Virus record (IMG/VR): IMGVR_UViG_3300006752_000230
Coordinates: 1-23,722 of that record
Reading direction: 5' to 3' (one strand)
DNA: 23,722 nt
From: a virus
The number at the start of each line of letters is the position of its first letter. The first letter of the stretch is position 1. The notes under the pieces were generated by a model, which saw only the letters and a program-made list of their open reading frames with translations, was not told where the DNA came from and did not search any database. The position numbers and the translations under genes were made by a program. Below, one piece after another: positions 1 to 23,722 of the stretch.

Positions 1-1446
1 GAAAGAGATATTCAAATAATTGAAACTGTTGATAAGGATGATATTATAAACGCATTAGCACCTATTACTACATTGGATAAATTTATTGACAATTCTACCA
101 TAGATGTAAGAGTTAATAAAAAAAGTAAGGTCTATACAGTTACTACTGAAGAGCAAGATTGGAACCTATATGAAGACTTTTTAGGAGTTTCCGGTAATGA
201 TAGAGCAGTTGCAAAAATTTCAAGCCCCGGAAATTTTGGGGGTAAAATAGACTTAAATACCGGTAGACATATTGAAGAAGTAGAAGAAGGTTTTTCTGTT
301 GAAGTTATTAGAGAAATGTTAAAGCCGTCAGGAGTTAATGAAAAATTATTTGTCAATGTTAAAGATTCTATAAACTCTATACTTGATGATAAAGATGTTA
401 TTTTAAGATATTATAATTTAGTTTCGACTGAGGGTGATATTGACGATGAAAAAATTGATGATACTATTAGTAATTTAGAAAACTACATTGGTGAACTAAG
501 TGAAGATGAATTATTAAATTTATTAAAGACTTATAATAGTGAAGAATCGGAAACCCTAAATACATTATTAAGACCTTTTAATACATTAATGAAAACAGTC
601 AATAACACATTTAACGACCACACAGAAAATGTGAGAGAGGCAGATGAAGAACAAATTAGAAGCGATAAAGAAGCAGATAAAAGGGGAGAAGAAATTAAAG
701 TAGAACCTGAAACACAGGAAAATAGATTAGACATTCAAACCAATACTGCCATTAAAACATTTAGAAATTTCTTAGACGCTTATGAAAAAACATTTAGAAA
801 GTTAAATAATTATAGACCCGTAGAAGATTCTATGGAAGATATACAAACCTCTATGGATGAATTTTTGGCTACACCCGCAGGTCTACCATTTAAAGAAACA
901 TATGTAAATGTTTTAGATGGCAAAGAGTTAAACGAGTTAAACAGACCAGCAGTTCTACAAAGACTTGAAGAATATTACAGTCTCGGTGAATCTAAATTAG
1001 AAGAAGGTAAAGAAAAACTTGTTGAATCATTTATTAAAGATGATATAATGCAGACGCATAAATTAGTCGATATATTTACAAACATAATTACAAATAAAGA
1101 AACAAACCCTAAGCGATGGACACAGATGGCAAAATATACTTCGGCAGGTAAAATACAATTTAGATTTATTATCACAGTATCGGATAGCGGTAATTCGGAC
1201 CACCGAGCCGAAATAATTTATAATCAAGAATTTCAAATTAAACCTGTATTATCGGACACTTCAAGAATACAATTTACTAATCGAAAACAACAAGCCGCCG
1301 CTTCTATTGATAGAAGAGGTGGGCAAAAAAGTATGACCGCACTCGGAAGAGAAATTAAAGAAAACGGGTTCGGAATAGACAGGAACAGGAAAGAGTTTAT
1401 AGATAAGATAGTAGAAAGACTACAACAGTTGGAGATGGTGATTTAA
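1..1446 (+). CDS. Unrecognised virion-region protein, 5' end outside the window
   Basis: The reading frame is open from base 1 without a stop, so the gene begins upstream; a TTG at 73 is only an internal codon. About 481 residues are visible. The middle is highly charged and helical, with an acidic/basic coiled-coil-like stretch around nt 620-720. The C-terminus is basic and helical, with an R-R-G-G-Q-K segment near nt 1312-1330. No signal peptide or membrane segment is visible in the visible part. Its stop TAA overlaps the next ATG by one base (TAATG), so it is coupled to the head-tail connector gene. By position it lies where head or head-completion genes usually sit (inference). I do not recognise the family; capsid-associated or scaffold-like roles are possible but unsupported by a motif. 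Confidence 0.85.
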   Translation, partial: ERDIQIIETVDKDDIINALAPITTLDKFIDNSTIDVRVNKKSKVYTVTTEEQDWNLYEDFLGVSGNDRAVAKISSPGNFGGKIDLNTGRHIEEVEEGFSVEVIREMLKPSGVNEKLFVNVKDSINSILDDKDVILRYYNLVSTEGDIDDEKIDDTISNLENYIGELSEDELLNLLKTYNSEESETLNTLLRPFNTLMKTVNNTFNDHTENVREADEEQIRSDKEADKRGEEIKVEPETQENRLDIQTNTAIKTFRNFLDAYEKTFRKLNNYRPVEDSMEDIQTSMDEFLATPAGLPFKETYVNVLDGKELNELNRPAVLQRLEEYYSLGESKLEEGKEKLVESFIKDDIMQTHKLVDIFTNIITNKETNPKRWTQMAKYTSAGKIQFRFIITVSDSGNSDHRAEIIYNQEFQIKPVLSDTSRIQFTNRKQQAAASIDRRGGQKSMTALGREIKENGFGIDRNRKEFIDKIVERLQQLEMVI

Positions 1447-2534
1447 TGGTTAAGATGATGACACCTTCGGATTCCGGTCTAAATGTAGTTAATTACACAT
1501 TAGGTAACGGTGCTTATACAACTGCTGTAAAGGTAGCCGCACTATTAGGTATTGCAGATTTTTCCTCCTCTACTTCTCCTACTTTATCCGAAGTCGGAGA
1601 TTTGATGAGAAGGTCCGAAGATTTTATTGACGAATTTACAAATGCTTCATGGAGAGATAATTTAGTGGAAAACGAATTTCACGACTTTATGAGAAGTAAT
1701 AATTATAATTATTTTTACGAAGACTACATCGGGAAGATTAGACTTCATCACGAAAATACTCGTAAAATTTTACGAATTGCTATTTGGGATGGCTCGACAT
1801 ATACAGACATAGCATCCGTAGTAGCAACATTAACAATAGATGATTACACCAATCTTACATCTATCGTTCTTACAGGTGGGGGATTAACTTGGACCCTATC
1901 TCCGGACAGTTCCGGAATAACCGATAATGATAAGTTTAACAAGGCTTACGGGCAAAGAACTACTGCACAGGAAATTTGCTATCTTATCAATGAACAAGTG
2001 CCTACTATTACCGCACCTTTTACAGGTGGAACTGGTAAAAAGGTTTTACAAGATGGAACCGACACATATAATATATCCGATTTCTTTTATGCTAATTTAG
2101 AAGAAGACGAAACGATTACAATTGTTTCTTTACTCCCCGGTTCGGATGGTTCTAATTGCACACTCGCAGTTAATGGGGGAACTAATTCTCGCACTCAATT
2201 TACAAATAAAGAAGACTATGACCGTAATGCGGCATGGTGGGATATGAAAGATACGGGAGATATTTTTTTCCGTAGCGAGTTTCCTACACACCATAAGCAT
2301 TCAGTAAAAATCACATATACATGTGGGCAGACTCGCATTCCTGCCATTATTGAAGATGCGGCTACAAAACTTACTGCTTGTGAACTTATTACAAGTGATG
2401 ATTCTTATGTATTATTAGGAAATGATTCTAGTAATGGTATAGATTTAAAAAGTAAATACGATTCCTATAAAGCAGATGTGGACAAAATTTTACGCATGAA
2501 ACGCCGAGTGGTTTATTATTTGGATAGTGATTGA
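1446..2534 (+). CDS. Head-tail connector (gp6-like adaptor) with an inserted beta domain
   Basis: A 362-residue protein. The N-terminal part (about residues 28-72) has the pattern of connector proteins: a V-K-x-A-A-L-L-G-I helix, then a helix containing R-R-S-E-D-F-I-D-E-F-T and a Trp-Arg. The C-terminal part (about 285-362) has the other half of the pattern: a strand V-K-I-T-Y-T-C-G, then R-I-P-A-I-I-E-D-A-A-T-K and a long basic helix. Phage connectors of this class are normally about 100-200 residues. Here residues 105-265 form a Thr/Gly-rich beta insertion. The family's role is to cap the portal and join the head to the tail. The start at 1446 overlaps the preceding stop; ATGs at 1455 and 1458 are alternatives. 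The function is inferred from pattern and from its position at the head side of the tail module. Confidence 0.68.
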   Translation: MVKMMTPSDSGLNVVNYTLGNGAYTTAVKVAALLGIADFSSSTSPTLSEVGDLMRRSEDFIDEFTNASWRDNLVENEFHDFMRSNNYNYFYEDYIGKIRLHHENTRKILRIAIWDGSTYTDIASVVATLTIDDYTNLTSIVLTGGGLTWTLSPDSSGITDNDKFNKAYGQRTTAQEICYLINEQVPTITAPFTGGTGKKVLQDGTDTYNISDFFYANLEEDETITIVSLLPGSDGSNCTLAVNGGTNSRTQFTNKEDYDRNAAWWDMKDTGDIFFRSEFPTHHKHSVKITYTCGQTRIPAIIEDAATKLTACELITSDDSYVLLGNDSSNGIDLKSKYDSYKADVDKILRMKRRVVYYLDSD

Positions 2535-6518: not shown

Positions 6519-8795
6519 ATGGTAAGTAATGAAGTTTGGATGGACAGCGGGGCGATGGTATCTATGATACCTGAACAAGATATATTTTTAGGAACATTTG
6601 CGAGTGGGGTAAATTCTGATACATCTACTGGGGCAATTGCTTCTGCTACTGTTAAAACGGCGGGAACTCAAGTTTTAGCAAGTCAAACAACAATTGATAG
6701 TGCTGGTATTGTTGCTGGACAACCTACAACAGGAACAGGTGGAGAATTACTTTTAACCCTTTCAGCGCATACAACAGTTTTAACTTTTATAGATGCTACT
6801 GCCACTAATTACGAAGATGGTGTCGGTCCTGCTGGTCAAGATGGTTTTTTTACTCTTTCAATTGCAGGTGTTGATGGAACAGAAACAGTTGCAGTTATTT
6901 TAAATGACGACAATGTATCGCCTAAAGCCACAGGCGCAGATAGAGATATTACAGTTTCTTCCCCAATTGCTTCGGGAACCTCTGGAAGTCAAATTGCAGA
7001 AATGGTTCTTCAAGCCCTAAGTGGTGAAGATGTTTCAGTTTCAAGAACATTAGGTGTTCTTACTATTACAAATACCGTAGGTGGTTTTGTTGCAGATACA
7101 ACAGAAGATGTTAACGGTGGTGTAACCGTAACTTCAAATACTGTTGGTGGCGCAGTTACAGCCGCCACAGTTGTAGCCGGAGGTAGTGCTTATAATATTA
7201 CTTCTGTTGGAGATGAAGTGACATTTACTTCATCGGGAACAGACCCTGTTATTGAAATTGCTCTTGTAGAAGTTCCTTCTACTAACGCAGTTTTTACTCT
7301 TAACCCTTCTTTTACAGGAGAACTTCTTCTTGTTCCTAATCTGTATCGTGGGTGTATTTTAGAATTTTATTTAAACAGTGGCGACACTTTTACTGACAAG
7401 GCCATGATTATTTCAAATACGGCTACTACAATTACAGTAGCAAATACTATTGATTCGGCAATTATGTCTTCGGCATCAAGTTACTACGGTGTTATTCAAC
7501 ATATTGGCGCACCTGTTCCAGCACCTAAAGATAGTTCCAACCCCCGACTTCTTTCCGATACTTGGATTGGACTTACAGACCAAGTTACAATTCCTTCTAC
7601 CGCAATTGAAATGAAACAAATTGCACTTTCTTCGGGAACTCGAAATATGGCTTATCAATTTAAGGGTGCAGAAACTACCTCCGGTGGTTCTTTTTCCTTA
7701 TCTGCAAATAACTTTTCATGGCTTTACTACGCATTAGGTTCAAAAGAAATTACCACAGTATCTAATCAAGGTTCGGTGACAATGGATTCGGATGATTTCT
7801 TTACTTCAACCGGTCTTACTGGAAATAATTTTATCTATGATTCTAATGTAAATACAGCAGGTTTTCACCGAACAATTGGTAATGTAGTATGCCCTCCATT
7901 AAATAAACAAAAGGGTATGGATGATACAGATATTAAAAGTGTTAATCTTACTCAAACCAATGGGGCAATTACAAATAAAATTACTTATACTTTTAGTGAA
8001 AATAATACAGCAGACCTACCTTCATTTGCTCTTGAATACACACTTAAAAAGCCAGCAAGTATGGCTACGGAAGAAGTTGATATTACTTCGACTACTGTTA
8101 ACAGCGTAGCAAGAGATATTTCGGAAACAGTTTATTCTAAGATTTACCCCGGTTGTCAAGTTGAAAGTGTTAATCTTACAGCAGATGCCGGACAGGAAAT
8201 GAAAATGACAGTTAATTTTAACTCAAAGAATACATTTACTGCACCAAACAATTATGTGACAGCAAACAAAACTACTGACCTTCAAGAATGGGTAAACTTT
8301 GGTTCTCCAGCAGGGGGGCAATCATCTATTAGCGAAGAACAATTACGACCTTTTTTCTTCTCCGATGGCACTATTGAAATGTTTGGACAAGAATATATAC
8401 GCATCGAGAACATGACTTTGGACATTTCAAACAGCCTACAACCAAAGAGATTTATTGGTCGATATGATAAGAACAGCCAAACGCATATTCCGGGTCAAAG
8501 AGTATATAATCTCTCCTTTACAGGTTTAGTTACTGACAACCTTCTCTTTGAGGAACTGCGTAATAATGCTGCTACTTCTCTATCAGGAACTGACGGCAAT
8601 CAAATTAAACTTACCTTTACTAAGGACACTACAACCAATGATGAAACATTGTCAATGGTTTTCAAGGACTACATGGTAACAAGTGCAGACTTCCCACTTA
8701 CAAATGACAAAGGGCCGATTACAGTTAATTGGGCTATTCAACCTCTTGAGTTGCACTCATGCACTCATACAACAAATTGGATTATTCAAGGATAA
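6519..8795 (+). CDS. Tail tube protein with large N-terminal beta expansion
   Basis: 758 residues. The C-terminal 210 residues show the tail-tube signature: M-T-L-D-I-S-N-S-L-Q-P, then I-P-G-Q-R-V-Y-N-L-S-F-T-G and T-D-N-L-L-F-E-E-L, corresponding to the conserved strand-loop-strand of the tube fold that ends with a short helix. Another core part, around residues 345-410, has S-G-T-R-N, G-G-S-F-S-L and L-Y-Y-A-L-G. Siphovirus tube proteins are commonly about 150-300 residues. Residues about 35-340 here are Thr/Gly/Ser/Val-rich repeats resembling Ig-like or other surface-exposed beta modules, possibly decorating the tail shaft. The family polymerises into the tail tube around the tape measure. 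Position before the two-frame chaperone and tape measure supports the call. Confidence 0.72.
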   Translation: MVSNEVWMDSGAMVSMIPEQDIFLGTFASGVNSDTSTGAIASATVKTAGTQVLASQTTIDSAGIVAGQPTTGTGGELLLTLSAHTTVLTFIDATATNYEDGVGPAGQDGFFTLSIAGVDGTETVAVILNDDNVSPKATGADRDITVSSPIASGTSGSQIAEMVLQALSGEDVSVSRTLGVLTITNTVGGFVADTTEDVNGGVTVTSNTVGGAVTAATVVAGGSAYNITSVGDEVTFTSSGTDPVIEIALVEVPSTNAVFTLNPSFTGELLLVPNLYRGCILEFYLNSGDTFTDKAMIISNTATTITVANTIDSAIMSSASSYYGVIQHIGAPVPAPKDSSNPRLLSDTWIGLTDQVTIPSTAIEMKQIALSSGTRNMAYQFKGAETTSGGSFSLSANNFSWLYYALGSKEITTVSNQGSVTMDSDDFFTSTGLTGNNFIYDSNVNTAGFHRTIGNVVCPPLNKQKGMDDTDIKSVNLTQTNGAITNKITYTFSENNTADLPSFALEYTLKKPASMATEEVDITSTTVNSVARDISETVYSKIYPGCQVESVNLTADAGQEMKMTVNFNSKNTFTAPNNYVTANKTTDLQEWVNFGSPAGGQSSISEEQLRPFFFSDGTIEMFGQEYIRIENMTLDISNSLQPKRFIGRYDKNSQTHIPGQRVYNLSFTGLVTDNLLFEELRNNAATSLSGTDGNQIKLTFTKDTTTNDETLSMVFKDYMVTSADFPLTNDKGPITVNWAIQPLELHSCTHTTNWIIQG

Positions 8796-8840: not shown

Positions 8841-9215
8841 ATGGATAAAAAGACAGTAAAAAATAAATCAGCCCTATTTGCGACAACAGAAAGCGTATTG
8901 CATTACATTCGTGTAGCCCCTGACAGTGATGAATACCTAAAGGTTTGGATTAAAGAACCTACTTTCCTGCAACTGGAGAAGGCACAGGCTAAACTTATTA
9001 ATCTAAACTCACGCACACAGGACATTTCTCTCGAAATGGATACACTATTTCGTTACCTTTGGGAAGCATTCGTTGATAAAACAGAACCTCAACTTTCACC
9101 AGTAGAAGTTATACGATTAAACCCTTATGTCGGTAATCAAATTAAAGAAATCTTACCAGACCCGTTTGATTATGAGGGGGATGAAGATTTAAAAGAACCT
9201 ACCGAACAGCCTTAA
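8841..9215 (+). CDS. Tail assembly chaperone, upstream frame (gpG-like)
   Basis: 124 residues from the ATG at 8841, with AGGTGA at about 8829-8834. It is small, soluble and helical, with a strand-rich start (Y-L-K-V-W-I-K-E-P-T) and a central helix Q-L-E-K-A-Q-A-K-L, and ends in an acidic linker (E-G-D-E-D-L-K-E-P-T-E-Q-P). It sits between the tail tube and tape measure genes, the conserved place of lambda G-like tail assembly chaperones, which bind the tape measure before tail assembly. The end of the gene contains a -1 slippery site and overlaps a second open frame ending at 9412; a fused G-T product of about 190 residues is expected as the minor product. The function is inferred from position, size and the frameshift. 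Confidence 0.75.
   Translation: MDKKTVKNKSALFATTESVLHYIRVAPDSDEYLKVWIKEPTFLQLEKAQAKLINLNSRTQDISLEMDTLFRYLWEAFVDKTEPQLSPVEVIRLNPYVGNQIKEILPDPFDYEGDEDLKEPTEQP
9174..9194 (+). promoter_or_regulatory. Programmed -1 frameshift site: slippery T TTA AAA with upstream SD-like GAGGGGG
   Basis: In the zero frame the codons are GAT TTA AAA, giving the canonical X-XXY-YYZ heptamer T-TTA-AAA at 9188-9194, where both tRNAs can re-pair after slipping one base back. The heptamer lies inside the only stretch where both frames are open (9185-9212). GAGGGGG at 9174-9180 is seven bases upstream and could pair with the 16S rRNA 3' end, like the stimulatory element of bacterial dnaX (inference). A weak hairpin, GGGGA (9220-9224) with TCTCC (9233-9237), lies about 25 bases downstream, farther than usual for a stimulator. 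Confidence 0.75.
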
Positions 9216-9412
9216 GTGGGGGGAAAATAGATTCTCCAGTAATCTCTTCTCGGATAACTTTATATATCTTGGCAAAGGAACTTAATATTAGTCCCGCCGA
9301 GGCATATCAAATGCCGTATTCTATGGTTCGGGATTTTATGGTTATGTTTTCTATCTCTAAAGAAGAAGAAGCGAAACAAATAGAGGCTACAAAGAATAAA
9401 ATGAATAGGTGA
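9185..9412 (+). CDS. Tail assembly chaperone, downstream frame (T part of a gpGT-like fusion)
   Basis: The -1 frame is open from 9185 to the TGA at 9410-9412, and no ATG or GTG occurs in it before 9311. It encodes a well-formed helical peptide with S-S-R-I-T-L-Y-I-L-A-K-E-L, P-A-E-A-Y-Q-M-P-Y and V-R-D-F-M-V-M-F, then a charged Lys/Glu tail. After slippage at 9194 the fusion adds 72 residues to the first 118 of the upstream protein. The motif of a helix followed by a short loop containing Tyr-x-Met-Pro and another amphipathic helix resembles T domains that recruit the tape measure. Its stop codon is embedded in the ribosome site of the tape measure gene (GG-TGA-TT), as at other real junctions here, which supports translation of this frame. 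Confidence 0.8.
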   Translation, partial: RFKRTYRTALSGGKIDSPVISSRITLYILAKELNISPAEAYQMPYSMVRDFMVMFSISKEEEAKQIEATKNKMNR

Positions 9413-9416: not shown

Positions 9417-11324
9417 ATGGATATGAACGCATTGAGAAGACAACTCGATTCATTTAATACAGATTTAGAAGATGTAAATAAATTACTATTAGAAACAGAT
9501 GATGCTTCCGAAGGTTTAGTCCGAAAGATGAAGGAACTTTCTGGGATTGGTTCAAAGGGCGGTATTATAAGAAGTATTGTCACCCGTTTTTCGGTAGCAG
9601 TTCCCTCGTTATATAAATTAACTCAACAGGTTTCTTCATTATTATTAATATTTAGGTATGTTGATACTGCAAGAACTGAAAGTTTAAAAGAAGAGGCTAA
9701 GGTTGTAGAAAGTCTTAGGCGTAGAGAAGACATACAACGAAGGTTGTATAAATTAGAAAAGGTTCGTAGAACTGGAAATCTTACTGCACTTGAAAAAGAA
9801 CAGTATTACAATGACGCTTCTATTAAAAATTTAATGAAGAGTATGTCTTTTAACGACGCACTATTAAAAACTCAAGAAAAAATGTCACTTATAAAAAATA
9901 AAATAGCAAAGGCTGATGATAAAATATTTAAAGCGGCAAGAAAAAGATATGTTCGAGATAATTACGGTGGTAATTTAACTGGTGGTAATTTATTAGGCAA
10001 GGCTTCAATTTTGATGGCTGATGAAGAATTAAAAGGTTTAGGACAAAGAAAAAGAGGACTTGGCGATGAAATGGTTAGTTTATTAGACCGAGAATTCACT
10101 TTGAAGGATGATATAGATTCGGGATATTTGACTGATTCTGGAAAAAAACAAGCAGAAAGGGATTTAAAGATAGTACAGGATTTAATTGCTGCCGTAGAAG
10201 ATTCTATGCAACTTATACAGGATGATATGAAAATTGCCTATTCAAAAAGAGATGACTTAATAGAAAAAGAATCGGGTTCATTTAGAGTTAAGGGTAATGC
10301 AGGTAATAGGAAATTTGAGGACTTAACACCTTTTGAAAAGCAAATGGCAAAGTATGAAAAGTTGAAAGAAAAAGTTAATACTAAGTTTAACAAAGTAAAA
10401 GGTGGAATTGAAGGTTTTTTTAGTAAAGGTAATATGAAATTGATGGCGCAAAATGCTATGAAATTTGGGAAGATATTAATGTATGCTCTTGGTTTTATTT
10501 TAGTATTGGGTATTATCGTCTATATGTTAAGAAGAATAAGATTCTTTGAAAAGGCTGGAGAAATATTTTCAAAGATTAAAGAAAAATTAATTCCCCTTAC
10601 GGAAATGTTCACAGAAAATATAGGAATTTTTATTACCGAAATAATGAATGTATTTGGTGCTATAAAGGATATTTTTGTAGGTTTATTTTCTGGAGATGGA
10701 GAAAAAATTTGGAAGGGCGGTGAAAGATTACTAAAAAGTTTATGGAAGGCCGTTAAAGCGTATGCTAAAGTTTTAGTAAGCGGTGGATTACTCGTGTTGG
10801 CTGGACTTGCTGGAACATATCTTACAGTTTTTGGAGGGTTATTATTAGGTGTGGGTGAAACTATAAAAGACGCAATTATAAATGCTATTAAAAGCCCATT
10901 TAAAACTTTTAAAAAAGGTATAAAAGGTTCAGTAAGTGGTGGCGCTTTAGGTGCAGTTGCTGGAGGTATATTGGGAAGTGTAATTCCGGGTGCTGGAACT
11001 GTTGCAGGTGCGACTGTCGGTGGAGTTATTGGTAGTACTATTGGTGGTTTTTCTGGAATGGCAGGAATGGCTTCAGGGGGAACTAATTTATTAGGAGGTG
11101 CTTATTTAGTAGGAGAAAATGGGCCTGAAACAGTTTTACTTCCCGGTGGAAGTTCAGTTATAAACAATACAAACACCCGTGGTTCTATGGGAAATACAGT
11201 AAATGTTTATGTTAATGGAAGAGTAGGTGCTTCCGAACAAGAGTTAAATCAACTTGCGGATAAAATAGGACAAAAGATTTCTATGCGTATGAATAGATTT
11301 TCACCAACAGGATTAAGAGGATGA
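9417..11324 (+). CDS. Tail tape measure protein
   Basis: 635 residues, or 633 if translation begins at the ATG at 9423. The N-terminal 340 residues are helical and rich in Lys, Glu, Arg and Leu, as expected for the extended coil inside a tail tube. A strong membrane-type segment lies at about residues 353-373 (G-F-I-L-V-L-G-I-I-V-Y-M). A second hydrophobic Gly/Leu region is at about 453-480, and a Gly/Ala-rich segment at about 505-560. The C-terminus has G-A-Y-L-V-G-E-N-G-P-E-T-V-L-L-P-G-G, a sequence very characteristic of tape measure C-termini. The family sets tail length and carries membrane-penetrating parts. The gene follows the two-frame chaperone, the canonical position. The helical portion is modest, suggesting a short-to-medium tail. 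Confidence 0.9.
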   Translation: MDMNALRRQLDSFNTDLEDVNKLLLETDDASEGLVRKMKELSGIGSKGGIIRSIVTRFSVAVPSLYKLTQQVSSLLLIFRYVDTARTESLKEEAKVVESLRRREDIQRRLYKLEKVRRTGNLTALEKEQYYNDASIKNLMKSMSFNDALLKTQEKMSLIKNKIAKADDKIFKAARKRYVRDNYGGNLTGGNLLGKASILMADEELKGLGQRKRGLGDEMVSLLDREFTLKDDIDSGYLTDSGKKQAERDLKIVQDLIAAVEDSMQLIQDDMKIAYSKRDDLIEKESGSFRVKGNAGNRKFEDLTPFEKQMAKYEKLKEKVNTKFNKVKGGIEGFFSKGNMKLMAQNAMKFGKILMYALGFILVLGIIVYMLRRIRFFEKAGEIFSKIKEKLIPLTEMFTENIGIFITEIMNVFGAIKDIFVGLFSGDGEKIWKGGERLLKSLWKAVKAYAKVLVSGGLLVLAGLAGTYLTVFGGLLLGVGETIKDAIINAIKSPFKTFKKGIKGSVSGGALGAVAGGILGSVIPGAGTVAGATVGGVIGSTIGGFSGMAGMASGGTNLLGGAYLVGENGPETVLLPGGSSVINNTNTRGSMGNTVNVYVNGRVGASEQELNQLADKIGQKISMRMNRFSPTGLRG

Positions 11325-23409: not shown

Positions 23410-23722
23410 TTACCACTCTAAATCAATTTTTACCAACTCTCCTAAGTCTTCATCGAAGAAACTTAGATTACCATTTTCTACTCCCATTTTCCACACATCT
23501 AAAGTAAGTTGAGAATCTTTTAGACAATACTTTGCCACATCTTCATACTTACCTTCATTCCACCATCGGACAGCCATAAGTCCGTCACCGGACTTTTGTG
23601 AATTAAGATTACACTTAGCGAGATTATCCAATTGAACTCGCTTACCTGCCGCCTTTGTCATCATTCTTGATGTATCAATACAGCGTGTTTCTTTCTCTTC
23701 GAGATACTTACGGACAATATAA
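23410..23722 (-). CDS. DEDDy 3'-5' exonuclease, C-terminal part; 5' end outside the window
   Basis: The minus-strand frame is open from the window edge to the stop at 23410-23412, giving 103 visible residues; an internal ATG near 23664 is not the real start. Visible motifs are C-I-D-T-S-R-M-M, L-D-N-L-A-K, K-S-G-D-G, A-V-R-W-W-N-E-G-K, and Y-C-L-K-D-S-Q-L-T, followed by G-N-L-S-F-F. The Y-x-x-x-D element is motif III of DEDDy exonucleases of the RNase H fold, and its Asp is a metal ligand. Motifs I and II would lie upstream, outside the window. Similar proteins serve DNA replication or repair in tailed viruses. It points towards the late operon and is separated from it by a convergent intergenic region with its own terminator. 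Confidence 0.78.
   Translation of the reverse strand, partial: YIVRKYLEEKETRCIDTSRMMTKAAGKRVQLDNLAKCNLNSQKSGDGLMAVRWWNEGKYEDVAKYCLKDSQLTLDVWKMGVENGNLSFFDEDLGELVKIDLEW

Follow-up and report, generated by a model that had tools for sequence, protein, structure and literature searches.

In phage lambda the tail assembly chaperone gene G precedes the tape measure gene and is extended by a T part that lacks its own start codon, ribosomes entering T through a -1 slip shortly before G ends (PMC5009743), and the locus described here has the same layout. Frameshifting of this kind is known from other tailed viruses as well, and in archaeal systems it has been proposed for few viruses, the experimentally studied -1 programmed frameshifts of archaea being limited to a single cellular gene, the alpha-fucosidase of Saccharolobus (PMC8211752, PMC7911831). 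Among individual viruses, -1 frameshifting has been listed for HVTV-1, HCTV-1, HCTV-2 and HCTV-5, and +1 frameshifting for HSTV-2 (PMC8211752, PMC5009743). The Magrovirales, which are viruses of Poseidoniales, have genomes of 90-100 kb that encode a family B DNA polymerase and a head-tail module related to that of the Druskaviridae. A tail assembly chaperone is named for Aobingvirus in the ICTV profile (PMC10768690), and frameshifting in magroviruses appears to be undescribed in the literature consulted.

The DNA analysed is a stretch of 23,722 bases from the IMG/VR record IMGVR_UViG_3300006752_000230, referred to below as the window. As at the lambda-type locus, two overlapping reading frames lie between the tail tube gene and the tape measure gene, so that tube, G, T and tape measure follow one another with the features given below.

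6519-8795, + strand: tail tube protein, context (Pfam PF18906 Phage_tube_2, E 1.3e-11)
8841-9215, + strand: G, tail assembly chaperone, zero-frame product (124 aa, stop TAA at 9213-9215)
9174-9180, + strand: SD-like GAGGGGG, ending 7 nt before the heptamer; probable stimulator
9185-9412, + strand: T, extension in the -1 frame that lacks a usable start (75 codons open at 9185-9409, stop at 9410-9412)
9185-9212, + strand: overlap of G and T, between the -1 frame stop TGA (9182-9184) and the zero-frame stop TAA (9213-9215)
9188-9194, + strand: slippery heptamer T TTA AAA, in phase (zero frame GAT TTA AAA GAA)
9202-9253, + strand: downstream hairpin, weak in the window, starting 7 nt past the heptamer
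9202-9205 with 9250-9253, and 9208-9209 with 9246-9247, + strand: outer helix of the hairpin, covarying in the T TTA AAA clade
9217-9223 with 9232-9238, + strand: inner helix of the hairpin in the window fold
9417-11324, + strand: tape measure protein, context (PHROG tail length tape measure families, lowest E 1e-6)

A first-pass annotation of this DNA had proposed a programmed -1 frameshift in the tail assembly chaperone, and the proposal is supported by the conservation of the signal, by selection on the T frame, by PHROG matches and by gene order. The 28-nt overlap is indeed the only region shared by the two frames, being bounded by the two stops; the T TTA AAA heptamer within it has the phase that was claimed, and GAGGGGG stands seven bases upstream, with ATGAAGA (7 nt) between the element and the heptamer. 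G itself carries an SD-like aaggtga upstream of its ATG. Reading G through AAA (118 aa) and continuing for 72 aa in the T frame gives a predicted G-T protein of 190 residues, in agreement with the minor product of about 190 residues that had been anticipated. We put the probability at about 95% that the window holds a lambda G/GT-type tail assembly chaperone pair with a -1 slip on T TTA AAA. Most ribosomes would read G to its stop, and a minority would slip back one base on the heptamer, with tRNA-Leu re-pairing on TTT and tRNA-Lys on AAA; probably held by pairing of GAGGGGG with the 3′ end of 16S rRNA and by the hairpin ahead, these slipping ribosomes would continue into T and produce the G-T protein. 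By analogy with lambda, G may bind the tape measure protein, and tail tube subunits may be recruited by G-T, the less abundant of the two products, so that their ratio would matter for tail assembly.

The strongest evidence comes from the relatives of this locus. A first scan gave 71 relatives of G and a later profile scan 345; the later scans comprise 296 G loci, of which 181 are distinct, and 180 of these have enough sequence to show T. The T frame is present in all 180, and G is always terminated by a stop, with no fused G-T arrangement among the 181. The first-pass annotation had suggested comparing the slippery site across relatives, and regarded relatives without a slippery sequence as evidence against the frameshift: an in-phase X XXY YYZ heptamer lies in the overlap in 180 of 180, so that the site is kept and no such relative was found. 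Eight different heptamer sequences are used, namely A AAA AAC (69), G GGA AAC (34), T TTA AAA (29), A AAA AAG (20), G GGA AAA (11), A AAA AAA (11), G GGA AAT (4) and G GGA AAG (2). On a tree of 121 representatives less than 90% identical to one another, a quick tree with many weak forks, the identity of the heptamer changes at least 22 times, each time to another X XXY YYZ. In the first set, the heptamer is found in the last 12 codons of G in 43 of 43 representatives, compared to 19.2 expected when synonymous codons are redrawn, a null that is conservative because it keeps the amino acids and that ignores relatedness, so the comparison serves as a guide and not as a probability; elsewhere in G, 6.2% of 12-codon windows contain an in-phase heptamer. 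The second slippery codon is AAC or AAT in 66 of the 121 representatives, and AAC in this position has been called mammalian-like (PMC5009743).

The element upstream of the heptamer is conserved together with it. An SD-like element is present at some spacing in 117 of 121 representatives, compared to 7.8% at control positions, and in 95 of the 121 it ends exactly 7 nt upstream of the heptamer. Many genes of the window are preceded by AGGTGAT- and GGAGG-like SDs, and this genic usage makes it plausible that GAGGGGG would pair with the anti-SD of the host and act as a stimulator.

Downstream of the heptamer, the 60 nt that follow fold with a mean z of -2.9 in the representatives versus -0.2 at the control position, and single members of the A-run clade reach z values of -5.6 to -6.3. 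In this clade the outer helix, about 8 nt past the heptamer, pairs in 72.6% of cells compared to 60.0% when shuffled and 41-51% when slid, with a covariation score of 0.419 versus 0.244, and in the T TTA AAA clade of the window it pairs in 74.8% versus 67.6%, with a covariation score of 0.285 versus 0.167, the tested helices having been picked on these very alignments, a choice that works in their favour. RNAalifold gave no consensus structure on the aligned downstream regions, apparently due to register shifts of the inner helix. Judged from sequence, the family signal is a dnaX-like one of three parts, SD, heptamer and hairpin. The window carries the SD and the heptamer; the stem-loop, which is strong in most relatives, is represented here by a minimum free energy fold that has the hairpin shape, with a stability not exceeding that of shuffles (z +0.70).

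Between relatives, dN/dS is 0.04-0.5 in the T frame and mostly exceeds 1 when this DNA is read in either of the other two, which indicates that T is under purifying selection in its own frame only; T is thereby a real coding sequence, and it has no conserved start. A T protein could in principle be made independently of G, either from a non-canonical start such as the ATA at 9227-9229, which in the window is placed just behind a GGGGGG (9218-9223), or by ribosomes that reinitiate once G has terminated, and some early ATG, GTG or TTG in T is indeed found in roughly half of the representatives. These candidate starts, however, vary in position and kind: within 12 codons past the heptamer they are absent from 61 of 121 representatives, and an ATG or GTG with an SD at usable spacing occurs in 5 of the 121, so that few relatives have an SD-supported form of the T-frame start which the first-pass annotation named as a counter-sign. 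Its description of T as lacking a usable start is also accurate for the window, where the earliest standard start, a TTG at 9269, falls within the conserved T domain. Since independent initiation would moreover leave the universal in-phase heptamer and the fixed SD spacing unexplained, we consider it very improbable. The frame change might also be produced not by the ribosome but by RNA polymerase slipping on an A/T run, and the A-run classes (A AAA AAR/C, often with one more A before) could support such slippage; yet the arrangement is the same around the TTTAAAA of the window and in the G GGA AAN class, both without a long homopolymer, and an SD-like element with a downstream hairpin typifies ribosomal signals, which makes transcriptional slippage an exceedingly improbable source. 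The -1 slip of the ribosome remains the reading that we adopt for the window.

One lineage among the relatives departs from the -1 relation found in the window. T stands in the +1/-2 frame relative to G in 11 distinct sequences (L062, L071, L102, L103, L106-L110, L114, L115). All of them carry CAGGAGGATGA(A/C)GAAAAAAAGGA, with a conserved A7 run and the SD kept; their hairpin is strong (mean z -5.3), their T is under purifying selection, and L109 has no ATG at the position where other sequences of the lineage have one. Sequencing error was ruled out as the origin of this frame, given 11 distinct sequences from different metagenomes with a selected T. The stretch from the A run to the hairpin is one base shorter than in the -1 sisters, and this loss puts T in the -2 frame and at the same time shortens the spacer, which measures 2-4 nt in this lineage, compared to 5.5 as the median of the -1 A-run class (p ~0.03, from eight rows that are related). 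On the tree there are up to three changes of frame relation, and possibly one, owing to the weak forks in that part. Since the frame relation by itself can't separate -2 from +1, these 11 relatives could also be explained by a ribosome that moves +1, the P-site AAA slipping forward. Against this, the A7 run would let both tRNA-Lys re-pair perfectly at -2, the heptamer, the 7-nt SD spacing and the hairpin are all retained, and neither the length nor the junction Arg is altered in a -2 product; the spacer is shortened in the direction expected for a -2 slip, which according to a review favours a spacer 1-2 nt shorter than a -1 slip does (PMC7618472). As A7 re-pairing and the shorter spacer favour a two-tRNA -2 slip, we suppose that the lineage probably switched from -1 to -2 slippage, and a +1 move is unlikely here, while still deserving serious thought. 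We lean towards the broader view that magrovirus-like archaeal viruses share the three-part signal and that one of their lineages moved from -1 to -2 with the stimulators kept. If true, this would be, as far as the literature consulted shows, the first case of programmed -2 frameshifting from an archaeal system, and a natural test of spacer length setting the size of the slip.

As for the identity of the two products, 31 of 50 T relatives match phrog_9001, and G relatives match phrog_25860, phrog_32593 and phrog_35486, all of which are tail assembly chaperone families. Because the window's own proteins are individually below significance, G having no significant family match and T reaching an E of 0.036 at best, the chaperone assignment rests on the relatives and on gene order. 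The structure model of T is helical and confident (mean pLDDT 93.9), in keeping with the well-formed helical peptide described for the downstream frame; that of G is fair, and a BFVD search with it returned one strong unnamed relative together with weak matches, a few of them to annotated phage tail chaperones. PDB searches with G by sequence and by fold returned nothing. Pfam matches of G to APOBEC2 and JHBP were below cut-off and were taken as chance.

The virus is marine, is most likely a virus of archaea, and appears magrovirus-like from its genes and those of its relatives. A family B DNA polymerase is encoded in 11 of 12 tested contigs of G relatives (36-97 kb), the window itself being a 23.7-kb fragment, and contigs of up to 97 kb with this polymerase fit magroviruses. 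In contigs of the A-run clade the polymerase is split in two, as named for Aoguangviridae (PMC10768690); two separate matches are present in the contigs of L033, L036, L048 and L061, the first match of L048 containing four in-frame stops. No MCM above cut-off was found in the relatives. The head-tail adaptor of the window (1446-2534) matches, among 50,697 phage records, solely HVTV-1, HVTV-2 and HCTV-5 (E 4e-4), and because BLAST of G against phages gave nothing, the haloviral link rests on this adaptor, gene order and a profile comparison. A host search in genome contigs gave one match, a contig of a Maricaulis MAG (L300, NZMJ01000011.1) whose G protein is 43% identical; this contig is probably viral and mis-binned, and it is uninformative on the host.

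Several side observations concern other parts of the window. At its far end (23410-23664, - strand) there is a weak match to PF10108, a PolB exonuclease-like family (E 0.065, below cut-off), and the strand switch would agree with a replication module of opposite orientation. In the tail tube protein (758 aa), about 350 residues, encoded in the 6519-7590 part, precede the Phage_tube_2 domain (residues 359-704) and perhaps form an added surface domain. Moreover, the motif M-x(0-4)-W-x-x-[ILV]-L-K opens several proteins of the window (+ strand ORF starts 2527, 3332, 3667, 5146 and 22145), as in MWEEILKG, MGWEDILKRK, MWSDILKS, MKWWDILK and MTWEAILKG, and it also occurs at protein starts in L003, L005, L018, L086, L091 and others; it may serve these proteins as a common tag for targeting or packaging.

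The family, with its 181 distinct members and a heptamer that varies yet is never lost, offers a much larger record for comparing the sites on which archaeal ribosomes may slip, and it suggests that internal SD elements and hairpins influence decoding in archaea as they do in bacteria. A start-less T is easily overlooked by gene callers, so that annotations of magroviruses may be missing part of the chaperone protein.

Among known systems, lambda G/GT shows no sequence similarity to the window by the searches used, and its heptamer, G GGA AAG, differs from T TTA AAA; the lambda signal is not known to include a conserved SD element and hairpin. The E. coli dnaX signal likewise consists of an SD-like element, a heptamer and a stem-loop a few bases downstream, but belongs to a different gene in which the slip ends translation early, whereas the slip in the window would extend the protein (PMC5009743, PMC7618472). 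Hardycor1 (HrrHc1_110/115), an archaeal tailed virus of a different group, has a classical -1 site G GGA AAT ahead of its tape measure gene (PMC7911831), a heptamer that four sequences of the window's family also use, unlike the window. Closest are the haloarchaeal Druskaviridae HVTV-1 (gp129/gp130) and HCTV-5 (gp128/gp129), which have the same order of adaptor, tube, G, joined G-T and tape measure, and in which the chaperone is annotated as a joined CDS in the -1 frame with an in-phase heptamer near the end of G, as in the window. They differ in that this heptamer is G GGA AAG, T is about 125 aa compared to about 75 aa, and the SD-like element is GGAGG at 10 nt instead of GAGGGGG at 7 nt. The gp129 of HVTV-1 matches the G profile up to the shift site over 82 columns (E 3e-5, probability 73%), a weak match that is consistent in position. 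The GGAGG 10 nt upstream of G GGA AAG occurs in both HVTV-1 and HCTV-5 (L094 15845-16599, L095 13845-14599), so that an SD-like stimulator may predate the split of the two virus groups.
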